64,000 bases of DNA from Flavihumibacter rivuli (lineage in GTDB: Bacteria; Bacteroidota; Bacteroidia; Chitinophagales; Chitinophagaceae). The notes beneath the pieces were generated by a model that made no database searches, was not told where the DNA came from, and saw only the letters and a list, made by a program, of their open reading frames with translations. The translations under genes and the position numbers were made by a program. Shown here piece after piece: positions 38,401-62,132 of the stretch; position 1 is the stretch's first letter; every line of letters begins with the position of its first letter. The stretch is taken from the NCBI RefSeq assembly GCF_018595685.2, contig NZ_CP092334.1, positions 3,500,001 to 3,564,000 on the forward strand. The letters run 5' to 3'.

Positions 38401-38916
38401 TAGATATTCAGCAGGGCCTCTCTCTACCCCATCAGGGGCTCCCGAAGGGGCTGCCGTGTTCCCACATCTTCACCTCATCAGGGTCTCCCGAAGGGGCTGC
38501 CATGTATCCACATCTTCACCTCAGCAGGGTCTCCCGCAGGGGACCCTGATGAATAGTAGGATAGATATTCAACGGGCCTCTTGAAGCGTACCACTATGGC
38601 CTGAAAAGATTACCCCCGACGCCCCCGTTGTGTTTGATGACCAACGGGTAGTTGGAAGATGAGATTATCAGTTGGATGCATAAATATTTCTACCCCAGCA
38701 GGGTCTCCCGCAGGGGACCCTGATGAATAGTAGGATAGATATTCAACGGGCCTCTTGAAGCGTACCACTATGGCCTGAAAAGATTACCCCCGTCGCCCCC
38801 GTTGTGTTTGATGACCAACGGGTAGTTGGAAGATGAGATTATCAGTTGGATGCATAAATATTTCGCCTTTTGTACATCGGGGTCCCCTTCGGGAGACCCC
38901 GCTGAGGCATAAACAT
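38401..38916. repeat. Inverted copy of the hairpin-rich intergenic repeat
   Basis: This is the reverse complement of the family at 337-1745. It has two tandem 173-bp units (starting 38551 and 38724, both GAATAGTAGGATAGATATTC), preceded by three hairpins of the GGGTCTCCCGMAGGGG type at about 38425, 38478 and 38526. The CCCGTTGTGTTTGATGACC and ATGAGATTATCAGTTGGATG segments are the complements of those on the left. The 157-bp insert found in each left-hand unit is missing here. No gene is present in 38399-39116. Confidence 0.88.
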
Positions 38917-45907: not shown

Positions 45908-45969
45908 TTTTTGAGATTAAATCTCCTGCTTGGAGGTTAATAGTTAATCGCAGGTTTTCAATTTACGAT

Positions 45970-46184
45970 TGCGCACAACGTCTAGGGATTTGGTTCGACA
46001 GGACCATTACTAACGTCCCGAAGGGGTCTGCTGATTTGTTATTTGCGAAAGTCTTTGTTTATATTCAAAAGACAAAATGAAACCGGACAATCCTTAGCCT
46101 GTATACATCAATGATTTATCGTTGAAGTTCCAACGACCCGCCCTGGTAAGCCAAATGCTCTTCTTATATGCGGGTTGTTTAGTG
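45970..46184 (-). repeat. attC-like imperfect palindrome
   Basis: Core TGCGCACAAC on the right of the 45907 gene, outer arm GATTTGGTTCGACAGG (about 45988-46003), partner arm CCCTGGTAAGCCAAATGC (46141-46158) and a far core GTTGTTTAG (46174-46182). The arms pair imperfectly; the centre is unpaired or forms minor stems. It separates the 45623-45907 and 46223-46657 genes. Confidence 0.4.
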
Positions 46185-47478: not shown

Positions 47479-47682
47479 GTATAACACAACGGACACGGTT
47501 TGGCAATGTGGCGGAGTGTAATGATATTTTTCCATTAGCGCAGCTAAGTCTATAACTGAAATTTTATTGTTTAATCTGTTGTTTGGCGTTATTCGTCTAC
47601 TTAAGCCGAAGCTGAATAGCGAACAAAATGCTGAATATAGGTACGTCGTCCTGCCATATTGCCAAACTGAATGTTGTGTGCA
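47479..47682 (-). repeat. attC-like imperfect palindrome
   Basis: Outer arms GTTTGGCAATGTGGCGGA (about 47498-47515) and TCCTGCCATATTGCCAAAC (47649-47667) are complementary at all but about three positions. Flanking cores are GTATAACACAAC on one side and GTTGTGTGCA (47673-47682) on the other. Total length is about 204 nt. This is one of the clearest sites in the left block. Confidence 0.55.
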
Positions 47683-50449: not shown

Positions 50450-50686
50450 TTACTCAAAAATCTCAATAGGTGTACCAATTAAGACTCTATCATACAGTTG
50501 GCAGACTTCTTCGTTAGTAAGCGCAATACAGCCATTTGTCCAGTCATAAAATCTATGAAAGCGCCCTATAAACGCCTTGCCGTTGGGCAAACCATGAATT
50601 TTAATCTCTCCGCCAGCACTCTTGCCAAGTTGTCGTGCATTATTCAAGTCAGCGGCATTTGGGTAGGAAACTCCAAGATTGTAGAT
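50450..50686 (-). pseudogene. L,D-transpeptidase (YkuD) C-terminal fragment, cut by IS21
   Basis: The readable frame runs from the IS border to the stop at 50450. It encodes the C-terminal half of a YkuD domain: GIYNLGVSYPNAAD, IKIHGLPNG with the active-site-region His, and WTNGCIALTNEEV with the catalytic Cys. The N-terminal part and start codon are missing. The sequence on the far side of the IS element (53332 onward) does not supply them, so the insertion was accompanied by deletion or rearrangement. The remnant would not be expressed as an active cross-linking enzyme. Confidence 0.8.
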
Positions 50687-50907
50687 TCCGGACCAAGCTG
50701 ACCCCCTTCCTGGTGTTTAGTTGATGGGGATTCCGGGGCAAATTGACCCCCTTTTTGGGTCAATTCCGGTTTGCCCGCCCTGTTTACAACATGATTTTTC
50801 CACTGTCATTCCGGCACATGTTGACCCCCCTTTTGCATAGCTGAGCTACTGTTACAAGATCGGTTGTTGGTTGCTGTTGTAGCATTGCCCCCCTAAAATA
50901 GAACGGG

Positions 50908-52455
50908 ATGGCAGCCAATCCGATAAAAATGGACCAGTTAAAACAAGTATTATCCCTTCATCAGCAAGGCAAATCCATCAAGGCGATTGCCCGGCTTACC
51001 GGGATTGCCCGTAATACCATCAGGGGATACCTGCGCCGCGGGCAAGCCAATGAGTGCAATCCCCTGTTGGATAACGATAAAGAACTTGCCGCAGCCCTGT
51101 ATAACCAGGATAGTTCTACCTATAAAAGCAAAGCCTACCAGTGCCTGCTGTTGCATTTTGAAGGCATTGAGCAGGAACTGGCGAGGCCGGGCGTTACCCG
51201 CCTGCTGCTGTGGCGGGAGTATCGCGAACAACACCCGGATGGTTATGAGTACAGCCAGTACTGCTACTACCTGAAGGCATTTTTGCGCAATAAGGATGTC
51301 TCCATGCACCTGGAATACCGGGCGGCCGAACAGATCATGATCGACTTCGCCGGCAAGAAGCAGTATTACATTGATAGCACATCTAAAGAGCGGATCAGCT
51401 GTGAAGTATTTGTAGCTACGCTGCCCTTCAGCGGACTGATCTTCTGTTATGCCGTTCCCAGCCAGAAGACGGCCGATTTTTTGGAGTGCTGCAACCAGAT
51501 GCTGCGGTATTTTGGTGGCAGCCCCCAGACCATTCTCTGTGATAACCTCAGCACTGCTGTTACCCGTTCCGATAAATACGAGCCTGTCTTTACGGATCTC
51601 TGTTACCAACTGAGCGAGCATTATGGCACCACTTTTAGTGCTACGCGACCCTATGAGCCGCGGGACAAGGCCATGGTGGAGAAGGCGGTGCGTATTGTAT
51701 ACCAGAATGTATATGCCCCCTTGCGCAAACATACCTTCCACTCCCTTGCCGAGCTCAATCATCATTTTCTTCAGCAGTTGGAGCGCCTGAACAAACTTCC
51801 TTACAAGGGATCCTCTTTCAGCAGACAGGATCTCTTCCTGGCAGAAGAGCAGCCCCTTCTAAAAACCCTTCCTTCAGCCCCCCTTTGCCTTAAAAAAGGA
51901 ACCGTACTGACCGTACAGCGCAACTACCATATACAACTGCGGGAAGACGGCTTGTACTACAGCGTGCCCTGGCAATATGCAGGCCAGAAGGTCAAGGTCT
52001 GGTATGACCACCGCTCCGTAGAGATCTACCATGACCACCAACGCATTGCCTGGCATCCACGCAGTGTCAACGGCAGGGGATACACCACCCTTGGGGAACA
52101 CATGCCACCCAACCACCAGGCCATGGCAGCCAGGAAGGGCTGGACGCAGGAAGGCTTGCTAAGTAAGGCTTACCGTATAGGCCCCTGTGTGGGCAGTGTG
52201 GCAGAGAAAATACTAGGCAACAGTGTTTACATGGAGCAGAACTACAAGTCCTGTTATGGCATGCTGATGCTGGAAAAACGGTACGGGTCGCAACGCCTGG
52301 AAGCAGCCTGCCAACTGGCACTGACGGGTATGCGCATTAATTACACGATGATCAAGAACATCCTGCATTGCGGTAAGGATAAACAGGTCCGCATACCCAA
52401 TGACACCCCACTGCCATCCCATACCAATATCCGAGGTCCCCAACAATATCAATAA
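50908..52455 (+). CDS. istA: IS21-family transposase IstA
   Basis: A 515-residue transposase. N-terminal HTH (SIKAIARLTGIARNTIRGYL, about 20-39). The DDE catalytic core has D in MIDFAGKK, D in ILCDNLSTAV and E in RDKAMVEKAVRIVY. The C-terminal beta domain holds PWQYAGQKVKVWY. Length is normal and the frame is intact. It starts 24 bp downstream of a run of terminal motif repeats. The partner ATPase gene begins 24 bp after its stop. Confidence 0.95.
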   Translation: MAANPIKMDQLKQVLSLHQQGKSIKAIARLTGIARNTIRGYLRRGQANECNPLLDNDKELAAALYNQDSSTYKSKAYQCLLLHFEGIEQELARPGVTRLLLWREYREQHPDGYEYSQYCYYLKAFLRNKDVSMHLEYRAAEQIMIDFAGKKQYYIDSTSKERISCEVFVATLPFSGLIFCYAVPSQKTADFLECCNQMLRYFGGSPQTILCDNLSTAVTRSDKYEPVFTDLCYQLSEHYGTTFSATRPYEPRDKAMVEKAVRIVYQNVYAPLRKHTFHSLAELNHHFLQQLERLNKLPYKGSSFSRQDLFLAEEQPLLKTLPSAPLCLKKGTVLTVQRNYHIQLREDGLYYSVPWQYAGQKVKVWYDHRSVEIYHDHQRIAWHPRSVNGRGYTTLGEHMPPNHQAMAARKGWTQEGLLSKAYRIGPCVGSVAEKILGNSVYMEQNYKSCYGMLMLEKRYGSQRLEAACQLALTGMRINYTMIKNILHCGKDKQVRIPNDTPLPSHTNIRGPQQYQ

Positions 52456-52479
52456 GCACATTAAAACCTATCATTAGCA

Positions 52480-53205
52480 ATGAACACAACATCCACATTG
52501 GAACAGATGAAAGAGCTCCGTTTAATGGGTATGGCCCAAACTTACCAGCAACAACTGGAGCTGCCCTTGCATCAGCAACTGGAATCACATGAACTGGTGG
52601 CACACCTGCTCCAGCATGAACAGCTCTACCGCCGCCAGGAAAAGACAGCCTACTATCTTAAACTGGCTAAGCTAAGGCTGCAGGCCATACCGGAACAGAT
52701 CAACTGCTCCGCAGCAAGGAACCTGACCAAGCAGCAGCTCACTACACTGCTCGAAGGGCAGTACCTGAAAAACGGGGACAATATCCTGGTAACAGGGGCG
52801 ACAGGCTGTGGAAAATCCTACCTCGCCTGCGCTCTCGGCCACCAGGCATGTTTACAGGGACACAAGACCATTTACCTGAGCATGAATCGTTTTATAGAGA
52901 AAATAACCCTGTCCAAACTGGACGGTACTTACTTGAAACTATTGAACCACCTGGAACGCCAGTCGCTGATCATACTCGATGACTTTGGCTTACAACCCAT
53001 GCAGCAGGACATCAAGCTGGCCCTTTTACAAATCCTGGAAGAACGCCATGGGAGAAGATCCACTATTGTTACCTCACAGCTACCTGTAAGCGCCTGGTAT
53101 GAATACATCAATGAACCTACCGTAGCGGATGCCATAATGGACAGATTGACAGCCAGCGCACATCGCATAGACCTGAAAGGGGAATCACTGAGGAGAAAAA
53201 AATAA
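52480..53205 (+). CDS. istB: IS21-family helper ATPase IstB
   Basis: A 241-residue AAA+ ATPase. Walker A GATGCGKSYLACALG (about 105-119), Walker B LIILDDFGL, arginine-containing RRSTIVTSQLPV, and the C-terminal DRLTASAHRIDLKGESLR found in nearly all IstB proteins. It assembles on target DNA and stimulates IstA. Intact. Confidence 0.95.
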   Translation: MNTTSTLEQMKELRLMGMAQTYQQQLELPLHQQLESHELVAHLLQHEQLYRRQEKTAYYLKLAKLRLQAIPEQINCSAARNLTKQQLTTLLEGQYLKNGDNILVTGATGCGKSYLACALGHQACLQGHKTIYLSMNRFIEKITLSKLDGTYLKLLNHLERQSLIILDDFGLQPMQQDIKLALLQILEERHGRRSTIVTSQLPVSAWYEYINEPTVADAIMDRLTASAHRIDLKGESLRRKK

Positions 53206-53513
53206 CCGGAAAAACTATAGCCTATTTAAATTTGAATAGCAACCCACCGCTCTTTGTCTTACAGTACCTCAGCTAACTATCAAGGGTGGGGTCAGTTTGC
53301 CCCGGAATACGGGGGTCAATATCAGCGGAATTTATAGGAATGGCAAGTCCGGTACATCGGCAAGCCCTCCACGTTAGTGGCAATGCTGAAAAGACATGAA
53401 AGAAGAAAAGCCTAAAATAGAACTATTCTCAAAGTTTCATAAAGTGTTTCAGGACGAGGCGGACTACATTAACACGGAAATCCTGGACTGCATAAAGCCC
53501 TTTTCGTTATATT

Positions 53514-53846: not shown

Positions 53847-54432
53847 GCATAAGCCTACTTCATCCCATTACCCTTTTCCATTAAGGTTTCCCCGGGTTGA
53901 GCAAATCCGTAAGTATGGGATCCTGCCAAATGTTAAAAGAGCCAGAACTTGGATTTTTCCACTTGCAATATTGAGGGCCGCTTGTTATTTTAAGTGGGCT
54001 GTTAAACTTATCCTTCTGGGGGTGAGGGGGCGAAGCTTTGGGTAATGGTGGTTAGGGGGAGGTTTTTTTTGAATGTTTTTTATGGACTGTGTATGTATCC
54101 AATTTTTCCCCGCTACAGGCCTAAACCAGGTTATTTGAGGTCTTTTGGTGGTGTTAACATTAGTTTTATGAACCGTGTTTTGCTTCATTAGAAGGCGTGT
54201 ACATTGGGTCGTTAATTGAAAAGAGGGTATTTATCCCTGATCATTCTGCTTAATTAATTTTAAATGATCATTGTGTATTGATGCTAGGTAAATGTGTTTT
54301 GTATAACCATAACAATTTGATTTCCAAGCAATAATTTTAGTCCAAACCCAGCGCTTAATTACATAAATAAACGCGTTGTAGGCAATATTAATACCCTCTG
54401 TTCGGCACCAAGACACTATAAATAAGCAAATA

Positions 54433-54873
54433 ATGACTTTGAAGACGATAGTGATATTAGTTCTTTCATTGTTTCCAATTTATTTATATTTTTTTCGAAC
54501 TCAAGAAATTTGGAAGAAACGTAATTACTCTATGTGGTTGTTTATTCTATTATCACTAACTGGAATTTTATATTATTTTACTGATCAAATTGAAAATAAA
54601 CTCAAATTAGTACTTCTCCTTCCTTCTTTCATTTGGTTAGTATTGGCATATTTATTCGATAAAATATTTTTGTGGAGATATTCTAAAAGTTTCAGGGATG
54701 GTTATATTAATCCAGACTATTTAGTATTTATATACTATGATAAAGTACTTGCTCGAGAAATATATGAGAAGTCATTGATTAGTCATACTCGGACAATTGA
54801 TAAGTTGTTTTCCAATGGCCTATTAATTATGACCTATTTTATCTGGACATTTTTAATTGAATTATTCATTTAA
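54433..54873 (+). CDS. Hypothetical membrane protein (cassette gene)
   Basis: A 146-residue protein with four hydrophobic helices (about 5-20, 34-50, 59-77 and 126-145). Family not recognised. The unit is cleanly delimited: start core GTTGTAGGCA at 54375-54384, 48 bp before the ATG, and TGCCTACAAC at 54884-54893, ten bp after the stop. The two are exact reverse complements. Base composition is much more AT-rich than the chromosomal genes to the left. Confidence 0.65.
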   Translation: MTLKTIVILVLSLFPIYLYFFRTQEIWKKRNYSMWLFILLSLTGILYYFTDQIENKLKLVLLLPSFIWLVLAYLFDKIFLWRYSKSFRDGYINPDYLVFIYYDKVLAREIYEKSLISHTRTIDKLFSNGLLIMTYFIWTFLIELFI

Positions 54874-54883
54874 ATTCAAATAC

Positions 54884-55084
54884 TGCCTACAACAATTGCA
54901 TTAGTGTAAGCACGGCGGACGTAATACGCTTTGGCGATAATTTCACTGATCAGCTGTAGTTGCGGCGACAGTGGTCCTACTGAAAATTTGAATTAATTAA
55001 TCAGCTATTTATAGACGATCAGCATTTGGTCAAGCAGCATAGAATAAATGCCGCGCCTACACCAATGCATGTACGTTGTACGCC
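54884..55084 (+). repeat. attC-like imperfect palindrome
   Basis: Core TGCCTACAAC at the left, core GTTGTACGCC (55075-55084) at the right, the latter belonging to the next unit. The outer arm TTGCATTAGTGTAAGCACGG (about 54895-54914) pairs with CGCGCCTACACCAATGCAT (about 55051-55069) with a few mismatches. The centre carries no gene. Confidence 0.6.
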
Positions 55085-55089
55085 ACTTT

Positions 55090-55713
55090 ATGAGACCTCA
55101 AATTTTAGCATACTTACTTTTTACTTTAACTGCTTGCGGACAGACAAAAGACAAGTCGCAAAAAGGTACTGGCATTCCTAAAATTACCACTACCCAAAAG
55201 CAAACAAAAAATATGTCAGACTATTCACCCACTTTTGACAAAGCTCATCCAAAAGCCAAAGTATTATTGAAAGAAGATTTTTATTTCAGCCCTATTGACG
55301 AAACCGGACCTTTTGGTAATGACGATGGAGCAGATACATATGCCGGCTTTAAAGACTGGAGAACAAATCACATAAATGATGACCCAGCAGATTTCTTATT
55401 TGATCAAATAAATAAATGGGGATATCCAAAATTTGACATTTATGAAACAGATATAAATAAATTGACTCCATATTTAAAGGAAAGTGAGTTAAGTAGTCGT
55501 TATATGTCGGGCATTGACGCAGCAATTATTTCAATCGCTTTTGGACAATTTTATTTAGAAGGAACTATTTATTCTAGTTTTAAGGAAACGGCTATCATTG
55601 CAATCAAGCGTCAACTCATGCCGGAAATACTTTCGCTTTGGGGTGACACATATAAAATTGAACGGGAATTGAAGTTAAATAAAATGTTAGCAGTTCTAAA
55701 TCAAATTAACTAA
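55090..55713 (+). CDS. Hypothetical lipoprotein (cassette gene)
   Basis: A 207-residue protein from the ATG at 55090, which gives a lipoprotein signal (MRPQILAYLLFTLTAC); an upstream in-frame ATG at 55048 lies within the attC-like site and is rejected. The soluble part includes LLKEDFYFSPIDETGPFGND, then GFKDWRTN and INKWGYPKFDIYET, and has a helical C-terminus. This domain recurs in Bacteroidota but has no function known to me. Flanking cores are GTTGTACGCC (55075) and GGCGTACAAC (55718), exact complements. Confidence 0.65.
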   Translation: MRPQILAYLLFTLTACGQTKDKSQKGTGIPKITTTQKQTKNMSDYSPTFDKAHPKAKVLLKEDFYFSPIDETGPFGNDDGADTYAGFKDWRTNHINDDPADFLFDQINKWGYPKFDIYETDINKLTPYLKESELSSRYMSGIDAAIISIAFGQFYLEGTIYSSFKETAIIAIKRQLMPEILSLWGDTYKIERELKLNKMLAVLNQIN

Positions 55714-55717
55714 AAGC

Positions 55718-55920
55718 GGCGTACAACATTCGTATTGCTGCAAGTGGGGCGGACGAACGCTTAATAGGCGGTTGTGCGCTATTCATCTTCGGTTCCGGGC
55801 AGACACAGCAACTATTAACTTTAGTTAATAACTTCAGCTAAATAATTTCAATCGGCAGCAGTTATGGGCAGACGGAATCCTATTTCCCCACCTGCAAAGC
55901 AATACCTGGCCGTTACCTGC
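55718..55920 (+). repeat. attC-like imperfect palindrome
   Basis: From core GGCGTACAAC (55718-55727) to core GTTACCTGC (55912-55920). The outer arm GTATTGCTGCAAGTGGGG pairs with CCCCACCTGCAAAGCAATAC with small bulges. The middle contains CAGTTATGGGCAGACGGAAT, which recurs in the next site as CGGTTGTGGGCGGACGAAT. Confidence 0.62.
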
Positions 55921-55925
55921 AAGGC

Positions 55926-56483
55926 ATGACACTAAACTTCAAACATACATTTGCAATACTTTCAGTTGTTATTTTGACACACTTAACGACACCAACTTTT
56001 GCTTGTACTTGTATTGGCAAAGACAAACAGACAACAGAAAACGTGTTAAACTTTGCAGACATTGCAGTTAAAGGGAAAATTATTTCCGTGACAAACTTTG
56101 ACTATTATGACACTACAGCTTATTCTGTAGCAGGACTAAAGTTTGACCCAAAGCAATCAGGTTATTTAATTCGCAAATACAAAGTTTTCACTCTTGTTGT
56201 TGACACAAAATTCAAGGCAACAAAAATCACAAGCGACACAATTCAAATTGTGACAGGTTTTGGCGGAGGTGACTGTGGCTATGAATTTGAAGTTGGTAAA
56301 GATTATATTGTTTTTGCTGAAGCATGGAAAGAGAAAATCATAAAACTTCGAAACAAAAAAAGAAAAGTAAAACGTAAACTGACTGAAGTTACAATTGCAA
56401 ACAAGTTCTATACGGACATTTGTAGATTGACACAAGACTCAAACGAAAAAGAGTTGACAAATTTGAAACGGCTGACAGAATAA
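55926..56483 (+). CDS. Secreted NTR/TIMP-like domain protein (cassette gene)
   Basis: A 185-residue protein with a signal peptide ending at TFA|CTC. The mature N-terminus CTCIGKDKQTTENVLNFADI, followed by AVKGKIISV and VTGFGGGDCGYEFEVGKDY and IVFAEAW, is the pattern of NTR/TIMP-like (netrin-module) beta barrels, with the N-terminal Cys free after cleavage. Such modules bind metalloproteases or other proteins in animals; in bacteria the role is unknown. Start core GTTACCTGC (55912-55920) and end core GCAGGTAAC (56492-56500) match exactly. Confidence 0.6.
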   Translation: MTLNFKHTFAILSVVILTHLTTPTFACTCIGKDKQTTENVLNFADIAVKGKIISVTNFDYYDTTAYSVAGLKFDPKQSGYLIRKYKVFTLVVDTKFKATKITSDTIQIVTGFGGGDCGYEFEVGKDYIVFAEAWKEKIIKLRNKKRKVKRKLTEVTIANKFYTDICRLTQDSNEKELTNLKRLTE

Positions 56484-56491
56484 TTGCCCAT

Positions 56492-56690
56492 GCAGGTAAC
56501 ATTGGGTTTTATGCAAGTTGCGCGTGACCAGCAAACATCAGCTAATTGCAAATCCAGGCTGTGGTTCGGGCAGGACAAACAACATTCAACTTTAATTATT
56601 AAATTCAACTTTATATTTTCAATCAGCAGCGGTTGTGGGCGGACGAATAACAATTCCCAACCTGCATAAAGCCCAGCTCGTTATGTGCCA
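56492..56690 (+). repeat. attC-like imperfect palindrome
   Basis: From core GCAGGTAAC (56492-56500) to core GTTATGTGCCA (56680-56690). The outer arm TTGGGTTTTATGCAAGTTGC pairs with CCAACCTGCATAAAGCCCAG with few mismatches. The central GCGGTTGTGGGCGGACGAAT segment is shared with the preceding site. Length about 199 nt. Confidence 0.62.
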
Positions 56691-56728
56691 CTATATGGAA
56701 ACCTACTAACTGTGCATCCTATATAAAA

Positions 56729-57334
56729 ATGACAGTGGAAAGAATATGGCTTTTATGCCTAATAATTTGTTTGGGATGTTCATGCAGGACAAACGATAAA
56801 GAAATAAGTTTAGCTATACCAGAGATAGGCAAGGCTACAGACCCAAAAGAGCCGCCGCCACCGCCGTTAAGTCCTTATGCTTATTACGGATGCTTCAATT
56901 TTATTTTTGATTCAACTGGCGCAATTTATTTTTATCAGCATTTCTACGACAGAGATAAAAAGCCAATAAGAGTTATTGACTTTGACAGTAATGCTCCGAT
57001 TTTTATTAATCTAAATCCTGACAAAATAATAAGTATACCAGCGGACGGTGTTAAAAGCTTTGTTGAACAAAACGTGCTAAAAGCAGATGCGGCTTTTAGA
57101 AGTGTAACAGTAATTGGCCTGACAGATACAATTAAGTCAAAAAGTCTTATACCACTAATGAACATTTTGACCGACACATTAAACGACATTGCTTATTTGG
57201 TGAGAAAAACGACTTTTGAAGAGAACGTTGTACTTGACTATAAAAGAAAGCAAAAGTTCTATTATCCAGACAAAGTGAATTGGGACTCCACTAAAGTATT
57301 GTTTGACCGAAAGCGAAAGAATAGCGGCACATAA
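56729..57334 (+). CDS. Hypothetical lipoprotein (cassette gene)
   Basis: A 201-residue protein with lipoprotein-type signal (LLCLIICLGCSC), a proline run (PPPPPLSP at about 45-52) and a mixed alpha/beta domain. PADGVKSFVEQNVLKADAAF and FRSVTVIGLTDTIKSKSL (in part) resemble ExbD/TolR-like periplasmic folds only loosely. Not recognised. Its stop overlaps the end core GGCACATAAC (57326-57335), the exact complement of the start core GTTATGTGCC (56680). Confidence 0.62.
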   Translation: MTVERIWLLCLIICLGCSCRTNDKEISLAIPEIGKATDPKEPPPPPLSPYAYYGCFNFIFDSTGAIYFYQHFYDRDKKPIRVIDFDSNAPIFINLNPDKIISIPADGVKSFVEQNVLKADAAFRSVTVIGLTDTIKSKSLIPLMNILTDTLNDIAYLVRKTTFEENVVLDYKRKQKFYYPDKVNWDSTKVLFDRKRKNSGT

Positions 57335-57466
57335 CAGGGGTATTGGTGCCATGGCGGGCTTTCTATCAAAAGCTCAGCATTCGGAACTATATTTGACAAC
57401 AGCATAAATCATCAGCCAGGGTAACACGGGAACCGCCCCGGCACCAATCCCTTAACGTTGTATGCC
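57326..57466 (+). repeat. attC-like imperfect palindrome (clearest example)
   Basis: 141 nt from GGCACATAAC (57326-57335) to GTTGTATGCC (57457-57466). GGGGTATTGGTGCCATGGCG pairs with CGCCCCGGCACCAATCCC allowing one bulge and a few mismatches. A near-identical site occurs in reverse at 62001-62132 and a decayed one at 53733-53846, so one site type is attached to different genes. Confidence 0.65.
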
Positions 57467-57480
57467 ATAACAAACCATCA

Positions 57481-58029
57481 ATGCGAACAGCTTTCACAAT
57501 TATCATACTCCTTTTATTGACAGCGACTTTTTTTGGACAACTTCCAAAAAATGCAATGAAAAAAATGGGACAAAACCCTGTTCTATTTATTGACAGCACT
57601 GAAGTTGATATGACTGCATTTCAAGCTCTCAATCAGTTTGACATTTCAAATATTAGCATTGTTAAACCTAAAAAAGCAAAGAAGCTGCTTGGTGACAAAG
57701 GAGTTGACGGAGGTATTTATGTGACTACAATTAAATCAGCAAAACAGAGTTACTGGAATTTCTTGAGCACAAAATCAGAGAAGTATAAACAACTAATTCC
57801 GACACCGATTGCTGATACTACAGTACAATATATTTTAAATGGACAAGCTTTATCTGACAGTTCTGCGACCGGGACGTTGTTTCTATTAACTGACAAAAAC
57901 TTTAAGTCATTAGACATGATTGATAAAGAAGACGGCAAGTTTCTAATGGACAATGCATATCCCAAACGCTATATCGTAATTATCACTGCAAAACGCTTCA
58001 AAGGACAGGTAAAAACAAAGCCATCATGA
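57481..58029 (+). CDS. Secreted TonB-receptor plug-like protein (cassette gene)
   Basis: A 182-residue protein with signal peptide (MRTAFTIIILLLLTATFFGQ). Residues about 55-80 read ISNISIVKPKKAKKLLGDKG, then VDGGIYVTTIK, closely matching the SIxVLKDAxAxxxYGxxGxxGVIxItTK plug motif of SusC/TonB-dependent receptors, but there is no barrel. It may be a stand-alone plug or carry a degenerate second repeat. Flanked by GTTGTATGCC (57457) and GGCATACAAC (58040), exact complements. Confidence 0.6.
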   Translation: MRTAFTIIILLLLTATFFGQLPKNAMKKMGQNPVLFIDSTEVDMTAFQALNQFDISNISIVKPKKAKKLLGDKGVDGGIYVTTIKSAKQSYWNFLSTKSEKYKQLIPTPIADTTVQYILNGQALSDSSATGTLFLLTDKNFKSLDMIDKEDGKFLMDNAYPKRYIVIITAKRFKGQVKTKPS

Positions 58030-58039
58030 TAGGATATAC

Positions 58040-58204
58040 GGCATACAACATGGTTATTGCCAATATTGGGGCTTGACATTGGAGCAATCCTCAGCGGTAA
58101 TTCTGCTGTGCGATGGTTCGGGGCTTTACGACTAAAGCCCAGCTTTAGTTCTTAATATTTAACTTTATCAAAAAGCCAGGCAGTTGTTCCGGGCGGAAGG
58201 AATT
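58040..58204 (+). repeat. attC-like site truncated by the IS3 element
   Basis: Core GGCATACAAC (58040-58049) and the left outer arm GGTTATTGCCAATATTGGGG are present. The expected complementary arm and the GTT core are absent because the IS3 element begins at about 58205. The missing half is not found on the other side of the IS. Confidence 0.5.
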
Positions 58205-58212
58205 CTATTGTC

Positions 58213-59268
58213 TTAACCCCCTATAAACTGGACAGATTTTTCAAAATGGTTTGCTACTGATTCGTTGATGTCCTGGTCATCCGTAAGGCAAAGATAGGCC
58301 GGTTCGGTGTGCTGGTCAAGGCTATACAAAGCGGACGCCGTCCGCATACCCTCGCTGTCCGGCCTTGACAAGCCCACCGTCCCCGGCGCAAGTTGTGGCC
58401 TAACAGCTGACAAGGACATACCTTGTGCCCATTTTTGCATTGGTGTGAGGAAGCCGATAGCCCCGTGTTTGCGCTTAACGTTATACCAGTGCATGTACTT
58501 CTCTATGTGCTGCTTTGCATCATAAAAACTGGAAAAGGAATGCCGGTCAATCAGCTCGCTTTGCTGAATGGAATGAAACGCTTCGATGTAAGCATTTTCC
58601 TCCGGAGTGGCAACATGTGTAAACTCTTGCTGTGCTTCCAGTGCTTTTAGTGCGGCTCGAACCTTATTTGCAACAAATTGGGAACCGTTATCATTTCGTA
58701 TGATGACGCCCTTCAGTCCGAATCGAAGGTCCAGCCAGCGCATCAGGGCAATGACATCCGTCTGGCGAACACTTCGTTGAAAAATCCAGCACAGGATCCG
58801 GCGACTGAAAACATCCATAATAGCCAGTTGGTAATACCACCGGTTTTCACCCTGTACCCAAACGTATTTGATATCCAGGCACAAATATTCCATTGGGTAC
58901 CTGGCTTCAATACGTCTATGCTGTACCCATTTTCTTTTGCCCTGCACTTTTATTCGAGCACCACATAGCAAATGATGTTCTTTCATTAAGCGATACACCT
59001 TCTTATGATTGATCAGGTATTCCATATCGCGCAGGCTCTCGGTCACTTTCCGGTACCCATACACGCAGTAGTCCATCGAAACAACTGCCCGGATCTGCTC
59101 TACCACCAGGCTGTTTTCAACCAGGCTATTATTTCCTACGATGGTATGGCTGCTGGGCTTCATGCCCCTTTCTCCGGGATGGGACTGATAATACAAGCTG
59201 CTCCTGGCTACGCAGGCCCATTGACAAAGCTGCTCAATACTTACCCTGTTTTTGTAACGTGCTATCAT
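58213..59268 (-). CDS. IS3-family transposase OrfB (DDE integrase core)
   Basis: A 351-residue protein. N-terminal HTH_21-like region (VARSSLYYQSHPGERG, then YGYRKVTESLRD), and catalytic Asp in YLCLDIKYVWV, Asp in IIRNDNGSQFVANK and Glu in EENAYIEAFHSIQQ, i.e. the DDE triad, followed by YNVKRKHGAIGFLTPMQKW. Its ATG overlaps the orfA stop as ATGA (59265-59268), so it may be translated by coupling instead of the programmed frameshift usual in the family. Confidence 0.93.
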   Translation of the reverse strand: MIARYKNRVSIEQLCQWACVARSSLYYQSHPGERGMKPSSHTIVGNNSLVENSLVVEQIRAVVSMDYCVYGYRKVTESLRDMEYLINHKKVYRLMKEHHLLCGARIKVQGKRKWVQHRRIEARYPMEYLCLDIKYVWVQGENRWYYQLAIMDVFSRRILCWIFQRSVRQTDVIALMRWLDLRFGLKGVIIRNDNGSQFVANKVRAALKALEAQQEFTHVATPEENAYIEAFHSIQQSELIDRHSFSSFYDAKQHIEKYMHWYNVKRKHGAIGFLTPMQKWAQGMSLSAVRPQLAPGTVGLSRPDSEGMRTASALYSLDQHTEPAYLCLTDDQDINESVANHFEKSVQFIGG

Positions 59269-59582
59269 TTGCCTGCTTTCCGGTAATGGGCATCGCTTTT
59301 TTTTAAAAGCTCGGTTTTAAATTCCAGTTCGAGTGCCTGGTTAGCAATGATCTTTTTTAAACGTGCATTCTCTTCCTCCAGGGAGCGTACCAGTGGATCA
59401 ACCTTTTTGTATCCCGGCTTTAAGCCGTCTTTGCCTTTTACCAGGTACTTCCTCTTCCAATAGTTAAGTACCGAATGCGCAAGATTGTATTTGCGGGCTG
59501 TTTCTGTTACACCTTCCCGTTCAGCTTCTTGAAGAATGCTATACTTCTCTTCAGGTGTAAATTGACGTTTTGTTTTTGCCAT
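59265..59582 (-). CDS. IS3-family transposase OrfA (HTH protein)
   Basis: A 105-residue protein: HTH_8/IS911-type helix-turn-helix (FTPEEKYSILQEAEREGVTE, then ARKYNLAHSVLNYWKRKY), followed by a leucine-zipper-like helix (VRSLEEENARLKKIIANQAL). It binds the terminal repeats together with OrfB. Confidence 0.92.
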   Translation of the reverse strand: MAKTKRQFTPEEKYSILQEAEREGVTETARKYNLAHSVLNYWKRKYLVKGKDGLKPGYKKVDPLVRSLEEENARLKKIIANQALELEFKTELLKKSDAHYRKAGK

Positions 59583-60408
59583 GTTCCTTAAATTTACTGT
59601 GACTAAATTGATTTACAATTTTTGTCCAGGCTTCTAAGGGGCTAAGACAATAGTCATATTCATTCCTTTCCCAGTATTTGTCAATTGTGTCTTGTGATTG
59701 GTATCCAAGCATTGTTACTTTTGAAACCTTTCCATCACTGCCAATTGTTACTAAATATTTTTCAGAGCAATTAATGCTGTCAATGTTAATCCATTTTGCT
59801 TTTGAAATTTTCTTGAACAAAATGTCTGATACTTTGTCCTTATCTTTTCTGTCAATAGCTCTTGGATTGTCAACGTAATTCTCAACATCTTCTGTGTTTA
59901 AAATCTTGCCGAAAGCAATATTTATAACTGTTTCTTTTTCGTAAATTTTATAAAAAACTCCGTCCCACCTTAATACTTTATTGGTCAATGGAAAATTTAT
60001 GTCGCCTGAAAACCAGTTGATGTATACTCTATCATTAATGAGGTTGGTACCAAAAACTTCCTTCATCTTTTTTTTTGAAGCCACTTTATCTATACTGCCG
60101 TTTCTTCGCTCCCCACAATTTATTATTTCCACAAGAAAAAGGCTGTCATTGTCAATTTTATATATTGCCTGATAACCTCTCCAGCAATTGAATGAAAAAT
60201 TTCCGTCTGGGCTATTTCTAAAGCTTAAATCAAATAACTGTTCAGTTTTTGTAGTCTCATGTCTTTGTAAATACTGCTCTAAAATCAAGTTGTAAGTCGC
60301 AATAGTGTCGCCCTTGAAAATAATGTAGTCTGGCATTTGAGGACTGGCGAAAAGTCTGAATGAGCAAAGTGTCAACAAAAAGAAACAAACTGAAATATAC
60401 TTAGTCAT
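59551..60408 (-). CDS. Hypothetical secreted protein with C-terminus replaced by IS sequence
   Basis: A 285-residue open frame with signal peptide (MTKYISVCFFLLTLCSFRLFA). Residues about 210-250 (KYLVTIGSDGKVSKVTMLGY) resemble the beta-hairpin of TonB C-terminal-like domains. The last about 35 codons, from the Tyr-Cys-Leu-Ser-Pro-Leu stretch onward, lie inside the IS3 terminal repeat (59653 and below) and overlap orfA, so the native C-terminus is lost. Its cassette start core on the right is weak (CACGTT at 60472-60477). Confidence 0.6.
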   Translation of the reverse strand: MTKYISVCFFLLTLCSFRLFASPQMPDYIIFKGDTIATYNLILEQYLQRHETTKTEQLFDLSFRNSPDGNFSFNCWRGYQAIYKIDNDSLFLVEIINCGERRNGSIDKVASKKKMKEVFGTNLINDRVYINWFSGDINFPLTNKVLRWDGVFYKIYEKETVINIAFGKILNTEDVENYVDNPRAIDRKDKDKVSDILFKKISKAKWINIDSINCSEKYLVTIGSDGKVSKVTMLGYQSQDTIDKYWERNEYDYCLSPLEAWTKIVNQFSHSKFKEHGKNKTSIYT

Positions 60409-60472: not shown

Positions 60473-60601
60473 CGTTAAAAGGTTTTATGCAGTACATGAA
60501 TTCTGGATCCAGCTGCCTAGCCTATATTCTGCAATAAAATAGTGATTTGTTGTTGAATTTAATACTTCAGCCTGTATTGCATGAAGCCTATGTTAGCGCA
60601 C
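60473..60601 (-). repeat. attC-like imperfect palindrome (copy 1)
   Basis: 129 nt between CGTTAAAAGG and core GTTAGCGCAC (60592-60601). Arms AGGTTTTATGCAGTACATG and CCTGTATTGCATGAAGCCT pair at most positions. It is part of the duplicated 764-bp unit; the second copy starts at 61237. Confidence 0.62.
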
Positions 60602-60602
60602 G

Positions 60603-61211
60603 TCATTTGAGTTGTCCTACCCACACATCTCCCCTTTTTATATAAAGCATCTTTTCTGGTTCTCCTTCTGAATTAGCAACCAAGTTGAATTGATTATTCT
60701 GAATTAATCTATTATAAAACCTGCCATTTCTTTCTGATTCCTCAAAATCACTTTCCCAGAAGTAATCGTAATTTTCACTATGGAACCACTCAATTGAATT
60801 GATGTTTTTTGCTTCACTTGCAAATAAATTAAGAGGGAACTGCTTTTGTTTGTCAGTTGGTTTAAAAAGATTCTTATAATGAAGTTGTCTTTCGCCTATT
60901 GATGCTACGACTTGCGATTCAATAAAATTTGGCCAAAGCAGCCAAACTTCTAACCTGTACTCATAATCTTTCTGGTCCAACTGTGCTTTCCATGAAGATA
61001 AGAGGTTTAGTAGCATTGAGAACAGCATTATTCGATAACCAGCAGGGTATTGTTGATGATTGTATAAGTTTGACCAAGGAGCAATCTTGGCCTTTGTATA
61101 ATAGTAATTGTGCTTTTCTAAAACATTAAAATTTATTAGCTCGTTTGATTCGAACCATTTAATAATAGCTTTCCTTCTTCTTGCGAGTCCTCTGATTTTT
61201 TTTCCTTTCAA
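60603..61211 (-). CDS. Hypothetical protein, duplicated cassette gene (copy 1)
   Basis: A 202-residue basic soluble protein starting MKGKKIRGLARRRKAIIKWF (TTG initiation at 61209-61211; no ATG nearby). The central block LLSSWKAQLDQKDYEYRLEV and FIESQVVASIGERQLHYKNLF suggests a family-level match to DUF3916-like proteins, but this is a weak recollection. Cores on either side are GTTAGCGCAC (60592) and GTGCACTAAC (61228-61237). It differs from copy 2 by only a handful of residues (for example Asn/Asp, Ser/Thr, Leu/Phe changes). Confidence 0.65.
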   Translation of the reverse strand: MKGKKIRGLARRRKAIIKWFESNELINFNVLEKHNYYYTKAKIAPWSNLYNHQQYPAGYRIMLFSMLLNLLSSWKAQLDQKDYEYRLEVWLLWPNFIESQVVASIGERQLHYKNLFKPTDKQKQFPLNLFASEAKNINSIEWFHSENYDYFWESDFEESERNGRFYNRLIQNNQFNLVANSEGEPEKMLYIKRGDVWVGQLK

Positions 61212-61236
61212 GGTGACTGTTTATGATGTGCACTAA

Positions 61237-61365
61237 CGTTAAAAGGCTTTATGCAGTACAGTAATTTTGGATCCAGCTGCCTAGCCTATATTCTGCAATA
61301 AAATAGTGATTTGTTGTTGAATTTAATACTTCAGCCTGTATTGCATGAAGCCTATGTTAGCGCAC
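61237..61365 (-). repeat. attC-like imperfect palindrome (copy 2)
   Basis: Same as 60473-60601, displaced by 764 bp, with better pairing of arms: AGGCTTTATGCAGTACAG against CTGTATTGCATGAAGCCT (16 of 18 positions). Core GTTAGCGCAC at 61356-61365. Confidence 0.65.
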
Positions 61366-61366
61366 G

Positions 61367-61975
61367 TCATTTGAGTTGTCCTACCCACACATCTCCCCTT
61401 TTTATATAAAGCAGCTTTTCTGGTTCTCCTTCTGAATTAGCAACCAAGTTGAATTGATTATTCTGAATTAATCTATTATAAAACCTGCCATTTCTTTCTG
61501 ATTCCTCAAAATCACTTTCCCAGAAGTAATCGTAATTTTCACTATGGAACCACTCAATTGAATTGATGTTTTTTGCTTCACTTGCAAATAAATTAAAAGG
61601 GAACTGCTTTTGTTTGTCAGTTGGTTTAAAAAGATTCTTATAATGAAGTTGTCTTTCGCCTATTGATGCTACGACTTGCGATTCAATAAAATTTGGCCAA
61701 AACAGCCAAACTTCTAACCTGTACTCATAATCTTTCTGGTCCAACTGTGCTTTCCATGTAGATAAGAGGTTTAGTAGCATTGAGAACAGCATTATTCGAT
61801 AACCAGCAGGGTATTGTTGATGATTGTATAAGTCTGACCAAGGAGCAATCTTGGCCTTTGTATAATAGTAATTGTGCTTTTCTAAAACATTAAAATTTAT
61901 TAGCTCGTTTGATTCGAACCATTTAATAATAGCTTTCCTTCTTCTTGCGAGTCCTCTGATTTTTTTTCCTTTCAA
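61367..61975 (-). CDS. Hypothetical protein, duplicated cassette gene (copy 2)
   Basis: A 202-residue near-identical copy of the product at 60603-61211, in the same orientation and with the same TTG start. The few substitutions are scattered and both frames are open, so either both copies are maintained or the duplication is recent. Flanking cores GTTAGCGCAC (61356) and GTGCACTAAC (61992-62001). Confidence 0.65.
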   Translation of the reverse strand: MKGKKIRGLARRRKAIIKWFESNELINFNVLEKHNYYYTKAKIAPWSDLYNHQQYPAGYRIMLFSMLLNLLSTWKAQLDQKDYEYRLEVWLFWPNFIESQVVASIGERQLHYKNLFKPTDKQKQFPFNLFASEAKNINSIEWFHSENYDYFWESDFEESERNGRFYNRLIQNNQFNLVANSEGEPEKLLYIKRGDVWVGQLK

Positions 61976-62000
61976 GGTGACTGTTTATGATGTGCACTAA

Positions 62001-62132
62001 CGTTAAGGGATTGGTGCCGGGGCGGTCCCCGTGTTACTCTGGTTGATGATTTATTCTAATGTTAATTATATTTCTGAATGCTGAGCCCTTGATCGAAAGC
62101 CCGCCATGGCATAAATACCCATGTTATATGCC
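62001..62132 (-). repeat. attC-like site marking the right end of the array
   Basis: This is the reverse complement of the 57326-57466 site with few changes: TAAGGGATTGGTGCCGGGGC at the left arm, CGCCATGGCATAAATACCC at the right arm, ending with core GTTATATGCC (62123-62132). Beyond it no cassette gene is found. Confidence 0.62.

Follow-up and report, generated by a model that had tools for sequence, protein, structure and literature searches.

The window analysed here is the 64,000-nucleotide stretch comprising bases 3,500,001–3,564,000 of the single-contig genome of Flavihumibacter rivuli (genome G000, 4.3 Mb; contig C1), and it contains an array of gene cassettes separated by sites that resemble attC. 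Coordinates are window positions unless preceded by C1 or by a locus identifier (L with a number); genomes are designated by G with a number. With a probability of roughly 0.85, the locus was interpreted as an array that lacks an integrase and belongs to an integron-like cassette system found in several Bacteroidota families.

The cassette array and its sites

Five consecutive plus-strand genes lie between a core and its exact reverse complement, as a first-pass annotation made from the letters alone had claimed. All five core pairs (54375/54893, 55075/55727, 55912/56500, 56680/57335, and 57457/58049) were verified and are 10 nt long, the third exceeding the earlier version by one base. Cassette 1 (54375–54893) has the core GTTGTAGGCA/TGCCTACAAC and an open reading frame (ORF) at 54433–54873 (146 aa), and is followed by attC-like site A (54884–55084; 201 nt including the cores). 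Cassette 2 (55075–55727; core GTTGTACGCC) carries an ORF ending at 55713, of which the likeliest start is, in our reading, the ATG at 55090; site B follows at 55718–55921. Cassette 3 (55912–56500; core GTTACCTGCA) holds an ORF of 185 aa (55926–56483), and its site C (56491–56689) has homologues of the stretch from AAC to GTT (56498–56682) in many genomes of the family. Cassette 4 (56680–57335; core GTTATGTGCC) contains an ORF of 201 aa (56729–57334) and is followed by site D (57326–57466), which belongs to a short class with 121 nt between the cores. The ORF of cassette 5 (57457–58049; core GTTGTATGCC) encodes 182 aa (57481–58029), and the cassette has a 75% relative in a second array of the genome (array 2). 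Site E (58040–58205) is cut by an insertion sequence. All of these features are on the plus strand. The DNA between the units was confirmed to be palindromic, with gaps from AAC to GTT of 181, 184, 179, and 121 nt.

When 10-mers with GTT/AAC and mates 250–1600 nt apart were counted, the 64-kb window contained nine core pairs against 1.27 expected (first-order Markov mean; maximum of 5 in 30 simulations), and 5/9 were the consecutive, non-overlapping units. Chance repeats were ruled out as the source of the core pairs by these simulations and by the independent core-match test described below. First-order Markov simulations also served as shuffles in the chain test, the first-core test, and the second window site scan. 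No Rfam family reached its gathering score in the window.

Array 2 of G000 (approximately 641–664 kb) is a single chain of 17 consecutive units and shares cassettes with the window. Cassette 2 with site B (55075–55911) is 100% identical over 842 bp to C1:657045–657886 (minus strand), and cassette 4 with its site (56680–57456) is 98% identical over 795 bp to C1:646920–647713 (minus strand). The flanks of the cassette 2 copies differ from CGTT outward at both ends, and the arms of the left neighbouring site look unrelated. The similarity of the cassette 4 copies begins exactly at CGTT on the left and continues for 16 nt beyond the right end because the next core is alike. An array of genome G068 contains a 475-bp unit at two non-adjacent positions, 100% identical and with both ends at CGTT. 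This comparison comprised 37 matches, including some uninformative ones representing the same DNA under two locus identifiers and several partial matches of L062 to homologous sites. The full-length copies found span CGTT to the next CGTT, palindromic site included. The expected exchange at the core is thus supported by array 2, where copies switch neighbours at CGTT. As in integrons, the copied unit is a cassette made up of a gene and a single site, with the GTT core as its boundary. Sequence comparison showed that each unit consists of one or a few genes and one foldable site, and that the units join at CGTT.

Sites were located by interior homology (203 sites in 42 of the 46 loci given), and for each cassette the seven letters that follow GTT at the start were checked against the complement of the seven that precede AAC at the end. 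Neighbouring same-strand site pairs matched at 6 or 7 of these 7 letters in 119/140 pooled cases, a test that is partly circular in that 92/203 sites were queries first found through core matches. The count divides into 74/74 where both sites were queries, 14/17 where one was, and 31/49 where neither was. For these independent pairs, the control within single sites gave 2/49, and shuffling of the ends gave a mean of 3.4. Loci without any query site gave 25/40 against 2.9 shuffled. Three loci of the core-match test, L106, L109, and L119, had been chosen as array-bearing by core chains. The core match is therefore real, and about a third of the independent cassettes have weaker ends or missed intervening sites. 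The consensus GTTRNNNG fits 129/140 cores (46/49 independent). The R box of integrons, given as GTTRRRY/RYYYAAC in a passage of one source (PMC7370490), fits only 14/140 (4/49 independent). The departure of the cores from GTTRRRY had been recognised in the first-pass annotation, and the core is indeed a longer one.

For the fold analysis, 92 sites were reduced to 53 by removal of near-copies. The consensus fold has a stem of 9 bp, then stretches of 2 and 4 bp, each set off by a single mismatch. In the 53 sites, 701/789 cells were paired, whereas 200 re-dealings of the arms gave a paired fraction of 0.543 on average and 0.592 at most; the structure was derived from the same sequences as were scored. 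Many stem positions show three or four standard, compensatory pair types, which argues that the structure and not one sequence is conserved. In integrons, attC works as a folded bottom strand that carries extrahelical bases; for the present sites, the strong covariation supports a predicted folding. C precedes GTT in 52/53 sites, and A follows AAC in 49/53. The core-to-core gaps cluster near 118, 150, and 182 nt; the classes differ by steps of approximately 32 nt, which would suit a loop that is extended module by module.

Recombinases at the head of related arrays

By Pfam, only two tyrosine recombinases are encoded in G000, and the same two were the sole matches of the integrase profile, at lower scores. 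The window had been described as lacking an integrase, and this holds for the whole genome: no cognate integrase was found in G000, which fits an array resembling a cluster of attC sites lacking integron integrases (CALIN).

In relatives, a tyrosine recombinase of 350–430 aa is encoded directly before the first cassette and in the same orientation (L050, L051, L053, L054, L080, and L131). Within the genus of F. rivuli, 8 of 15 genomes have the array-head recombinase, for example L267 (G577), with chains of 5 and 11 cassettes beside the integrase, and L270 (G576), with a 6-unit chain. The first-core test covered the best 80 of 584 integrase loci in named genomes, 59 of them with at least 900 nt downstream, and was passed by a canonical core with a mate starting within 400 nt of the integrase stop codon. 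Such a core was present at 15/59 loci, compared with 7/320 upstream windows and 0/295 shuffles. Contigs ended within 900 nt in 21 cases downstream of the integrase and in 7 upstream, an excess that would be expected if repeats broke the assemblies there. The chain test was weak at two units (16/50 downstream, 16/70 upstream); at three units or more it gave 9/50 downstream versus 5/70 upstream and 0/150 in shuffles. L059 was left out as a complete system, its integrase frame having only 246 codons.

A motif of approximately TGCGTATATTTATG followed by GTT lies between the integrase stop and the first core and resembles an attI site. At 9 of 12 letters or more it was found downstream at 20/88 loci versus 3 loci upstream. 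The putative attI is alike in G577 and G576 (TTGCGTAAATAAACGC/GTT, the slash marking the junction). A gene for a single-strand DNA-binding protein stands 4–34 nt after the integrase in L103, L119, and L133 (3/83 loci). It was rejected as a part of the system, since four matches also turned up in a control upstream of the integrase (1.5 kb, both strands considered), so that an association was not shown. Its position may be due to chance, though it is compatible with a single-strand mechanism.

The array-head recombinase was compared with IntI. The spacing from KxDR to HxLRH is 96 residues in IntI (all 23 loci, out of 32, that allowed the measurement, IntI1 included) and 54–59 in other recombinases wherever measured. 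The short, IS91-partner-like recombinases of L057 and L061 also have 56–57; the spacing thus sets IntI apart from the others but is no hallmark of the array-head family. The array-head protein lacks the IntI insert of approximately 40 residues, the alignment showing a gap at residues 186–246 of 2a3v. According to a passage of an earlier study, recombination in integrons needs this additional domain, which is specific to IntI and lies near patch III (PMC9668308). In a 65-row tree, 15 IntI sequences, including IntI1, lie on one side of a branch with 100/99 and the array-head recombinases lie outside; with two Xer rows on long branches, the order of the groups is tentative. Judged by the missing insert and by its place outside the IntI clade, the array-head recombinase is not an IntI. 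The tyrosine recombinase with an integron insert that the first-pass annotation proposed to look for in the genome and its relatives thus has a counterpart in the relatives, but one without the insert.

Four extended proteins were scanned with family profiles. They scored 164–192 bits with TIGR02249 (IntI; cut-off 265) and 159–202 bits with TIGR02224 and TIGR02225 (dif-site recombinases; cut-offs 335 and 330). The best family was NCBIfam NF040815, named 'site-specific tyrosine recombinase/integron integrase', at 189.6–218.7 bits, just below its cut-off of 220. The nearest PDB sequences were those of archaeal XerA (4a8e, 5hxy), followed by VchIntIA 2a3v, which aligned as two blocks on either side of the missing insert. 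A fold search with the catalytic part of a structure model (predicted local distance difference test score 87.6) agreed with this ranking, XerA being nearest. The protein has an extra N-terminal domain with a predicted beta-beta-alpha-beta-beta-alpha order, which matched Pfam DUF5710 weakly in 11/44 members and HARP in 1/44. A PDB fold search with this domain alone gave no match at E 0.001, and the SMARCAL1 HARP domain ranked second at E 0.27. A HARP-like identity of the domain is thus no more than a lead.

Short recombinases (about 300 aa) near some arrays (L057, L061, and the G586 and G583 copies) were set apart from the array-head integrase. Those in L264 and on a Chryseobacterium plasmid pair with an IS91-type transposase (in L264, as judged by eye). 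Tyrosine recombinases of approximately 260–313 aa with a partner gene stand beside or inside arrays at L264:9084–11177, L265:7590–9683, L266:8838–10931, and L274:16942–18884. In L274, this partner carries an annotation as IS91 family transposase, and its counterpart in L264 looks like one by eye. The recombinase with the IS91 partner is multi-copy in G586 and may favour attC-like sites as targets.

The array query matched 84/195 genomes of the family, G000 included. A 13-row integrase profile matched 114/395 genomes of the phylum at 1e-60, a number that counts relatives of the recombinase and not this type of array, many of the matches lacking the N-terminal part. True IntI exceeded its cut-off in 105/395 genomes of the phylum sample. 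The IntI genomes listed belong to other classes than that of F. rivuli, except one of the same order, and in the family sample 1/195 genomes was above the IntI cut-off, with a stop in that copy. Among the listed genomes, IntI is nearly absent from the class that has the other recombinase, which may have replaced it. Chains were found, among other named loci, in Flavobacterium difficile (12 units), Ilyomonas limi (8), Arundinibacter roseus (6), and a Paludibacter metagenome-assembled genome (4). On viral contigs, chains of at least three units beside integrase relatives were found at 0/80 loci (the best 80 of 529 relatives). On plasmids, site C had one match, on a conjugative Emticicia plasmid with a two-unit chain. 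In this plasmid, pEMTOL01 of Emticicia oligotrophica (L355:5700–9067), one cassette-like unit holds a gene for an ATP-binding protein and a RloB family gene, and such cassettes may carry defence genes between bacteria. The Chryseobacterium plasmid encodes an integrase relative, and no chain was found when looked for there.

Placement of the system and rival explanations

Taking the sequence evidence together, the cassette reading stands and a placement under IntI integrons does not, since three defining features of the latter were tested and found wanting, even though the two seem to work in the same manner. Regarding the integrase-less cassette cluster proposed in the first-pass annotation, its geometry, the lack of an integrase, and exchange at the cores were supported, and the CALIN-like label fits G000. 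Its filing as an IntI type was not, in view of the relatives' recombinase without the insert, the GTTRNNNG core, and an attI-like site of the system's own. The alternative mentioned there, a different system with the same geometry, lies nearer to the evidence.

The window array would then derive from a system in which cassettes are moved by the tyrosine recombinase whose gene, in the fuller relatives, stands immediately ahead of the array and points the same way. Excision would take place between two attC-like sites, the enzyme acting on a folded single strand. A cassette holds both halves of its own core, as would be the case had it passed through a circular stage, and circular cassettes would be inserted at the attI-like site, approximately 100–250 nt past the integrase stop codon. 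In G000, the recombinase gene may have been lost, or the cassettes may have come by other means.

Several observations weigh against this integron-like system. Among the same-genus loci scanned, L271 (G581) and L272 (G586) showed no chain beside the integrase, and G000, G578, G579, and G580 have arrays without such an integrase at E 1e-60, so that another enzyme or a recent loss is needed for these four genomes. In the strict first-core test, 44/59 loci gave no first cassette; some of these have arrays by the chain test (e.g., L080, L131, and L133) and others show none. Array adjacency, as labelled by us, requires 10 changes on the recombinase tree, and 18/49 independent cassettes fail the match at 6 or 7 core letters. 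Finally, we infer the use of one folded strand from covariation alone.

An ordinary CALIN, left by a classical IntI integron after loss of its integrase and with attC sites somewhat diverged, would share the geometry of the array, namely the GTT crossover, the self-matching cores, the foldable sites, and one main orientation per array. True IntI genes are also present in the phylum at the frequency given above. This explanation is nevertheless unlikely, because those listed lie outside the class of F. rivuli bar one, the single copy in the family carries a stop, the recombinase at the array head in fuller relatives is not an IntI, and few cores fit GTTRRRY. A role of the host XerC/XerD proteins in moving the cassettes in trans, comparable to CTXphi-type systems, is rather improbable as well. 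The two tyrosine recombinases of G000, and two arrays that share a 100% identical cassette nonetheless, would suit such a role, whereas the fuller arrays are headed by a dedicated recombinase and the sites look unlike dif sites, which are 28 bp long.

Copying between arrays by homologous recombination or gene conversion through the repeated sites, without a site-specific enzyme, would accord with sites that are homologous repeats and with a genome that has no integrase. It is quite improbable given that both breakpoints of cassette 2 lie at CGTT beside a left site with seemingly unrelated arms, and it leaves the arm covariation and the core match in need of another explanation. That the units are small transposons or elements of the miniature inverted-repeat transposable element type has next to no plausibility. 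A 10-nt inverted repeat does flank each gene as terminal inverted repeats would, but the repeats vary between units and match within them, and full-length copies run from CGTT to CGTT through the palindromic site and do not end at the second repeat.

The integron-like system favoured here resembles IntI integrons (class 1 and the Vibrio superintegron) in its tandem cassettes, mostly in one orientation and with one foldable site each, in a GTT crossover core whose halves match within the cassette, and in a head tyrosine recombinase with an adjacent insertion-site motif. It differs in that the recombinase lacks the IntI insert, lies outside the IntI clade, and has an extra N-terminal domain, in the GTTRNNNG core of about 10 nt, in site length classes of approximately 118, 150, and 182 nt, and in an integrase oriented as the cassettes are. 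The latter arrangement is uncommon, but some integrons of spirochaetes and planctomycetes share it. The array of the window and array 2 are like CALIN in having sites and no integrase found in the genome, and unlike them in that the sites are not of the canonical attC type. Archaeal XerA and simple Xer recombinases are nearest to the catalytic part in the PDB by sequence and fold, but here there are an N-terminal domain of its own, a position at cassette arrays, and variable sites. An 'integron-like' subgroup of tyrosine recombinases in which the CAT insert is not fully conserved has been reported, and the accessible text describes no cassette arrays for its insert-less members (PMC8138268).

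The system may have arisen independently from a Xer/XerA-like recombinase, with recognition of folded sites achieved without the IntI insert, possibly by the HARP/DUF5710-like N-terminal domain, and would then represent a second origin of single-strand cassette recombination. We regard this as tentative, a shade short of even odds; if it were shown, the system would be more than a variant of integrons. If real, the system would also test directly whether the IntI insert, described as necessary in a passage of PMC9668308, is required to recombine folded single-stranded DNA.

If the integron-like reading is true, large cassette arrays exist in a phylum that is common in soil and water and in association with animals, and they would be expected to escape surveys based on IntI and attC models. 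According to a part of its description, IntegronFinder uses protein profiles to detect integrases and a covariance model of attC to detect sites, and version 2.0 found a complete integron in one Bacteroidetes genome, Salinibacter, where previously there were integrase-only elements (PMC9024848). Other surveys, as one passage indicates, pick integrases by the IntI additional domain (PMC2426708). Bacteroidota are listed among integron-bearing phyla in a section of a review (PMC8618304), and the part available of another study names 11 taxon models, none of them for Bacteroidota (PMC8352920). No description of such a system was among the matches listed in open-licence PMC papers, a scope outside which preprints fall.

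Other parts of the array and of the genome

The array exceeds the five plus-strand units and runs on along the minus strand to their left and right, where like sites are located at approximately 45.97–49.82 kb and 60.4–62.1 kb, several with homologues elsewhere in the genome or genus, and a further site at 50.2–50.4 kb was recognised by eye only. The window site scans gave five sites in the first round and six in the second (shuffles 0–1), and two of the six were false, lying inside cassettes. The minus-strand sites therefore rest mostly on homologues. They include attC-like sites at 47481–47682 (core GTTGTGTGCA) and at 45968–46167, the latter with many homologues in genome G586.

A 764-bp unit of cassette plus site is tandemly duplicated on the minus strand, copy 1 at 61237–62000 (ORF 61367–61975, 202 aa) and copy 2 at 60473–61236 (ORF 60603–61211, 202 aa). 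Over the stretch compared, 740/753 aligned columns are identical, and the junctions, each of the form AACG/T, read AACG/TTAG, AACG/TTAG, and AACG/TGGT. A further minus-strand attC-like site (61999–62132) is 87% identical to site D.

Two insertion sequences break the array. One (58206–59652, minus strand) encodes an rve/HTH_21 transposase and has 100% copies at C1:2436417 and C1:660888. The other (50684–53336, plus strand), IS21-like in our reading, has a 100% copy at C1:2931812 and encodes a transposase with rve and Mu-transpos_C_2 domains at 50908–52455 and a second gene at 52480–53205 that appears ATPase-like by eye. A third array may lie at 3.38–3.40 Mb of G000, where scattered sites include two two-unit chains. 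A dispersed repeat of approximately 220–400 bp at window positions 38465–38907 and 311–1682 has dozens of matches in G000 in both orientations, the longer ones at approximately 80–91% identity, and is apparently unrelated to the arrays.

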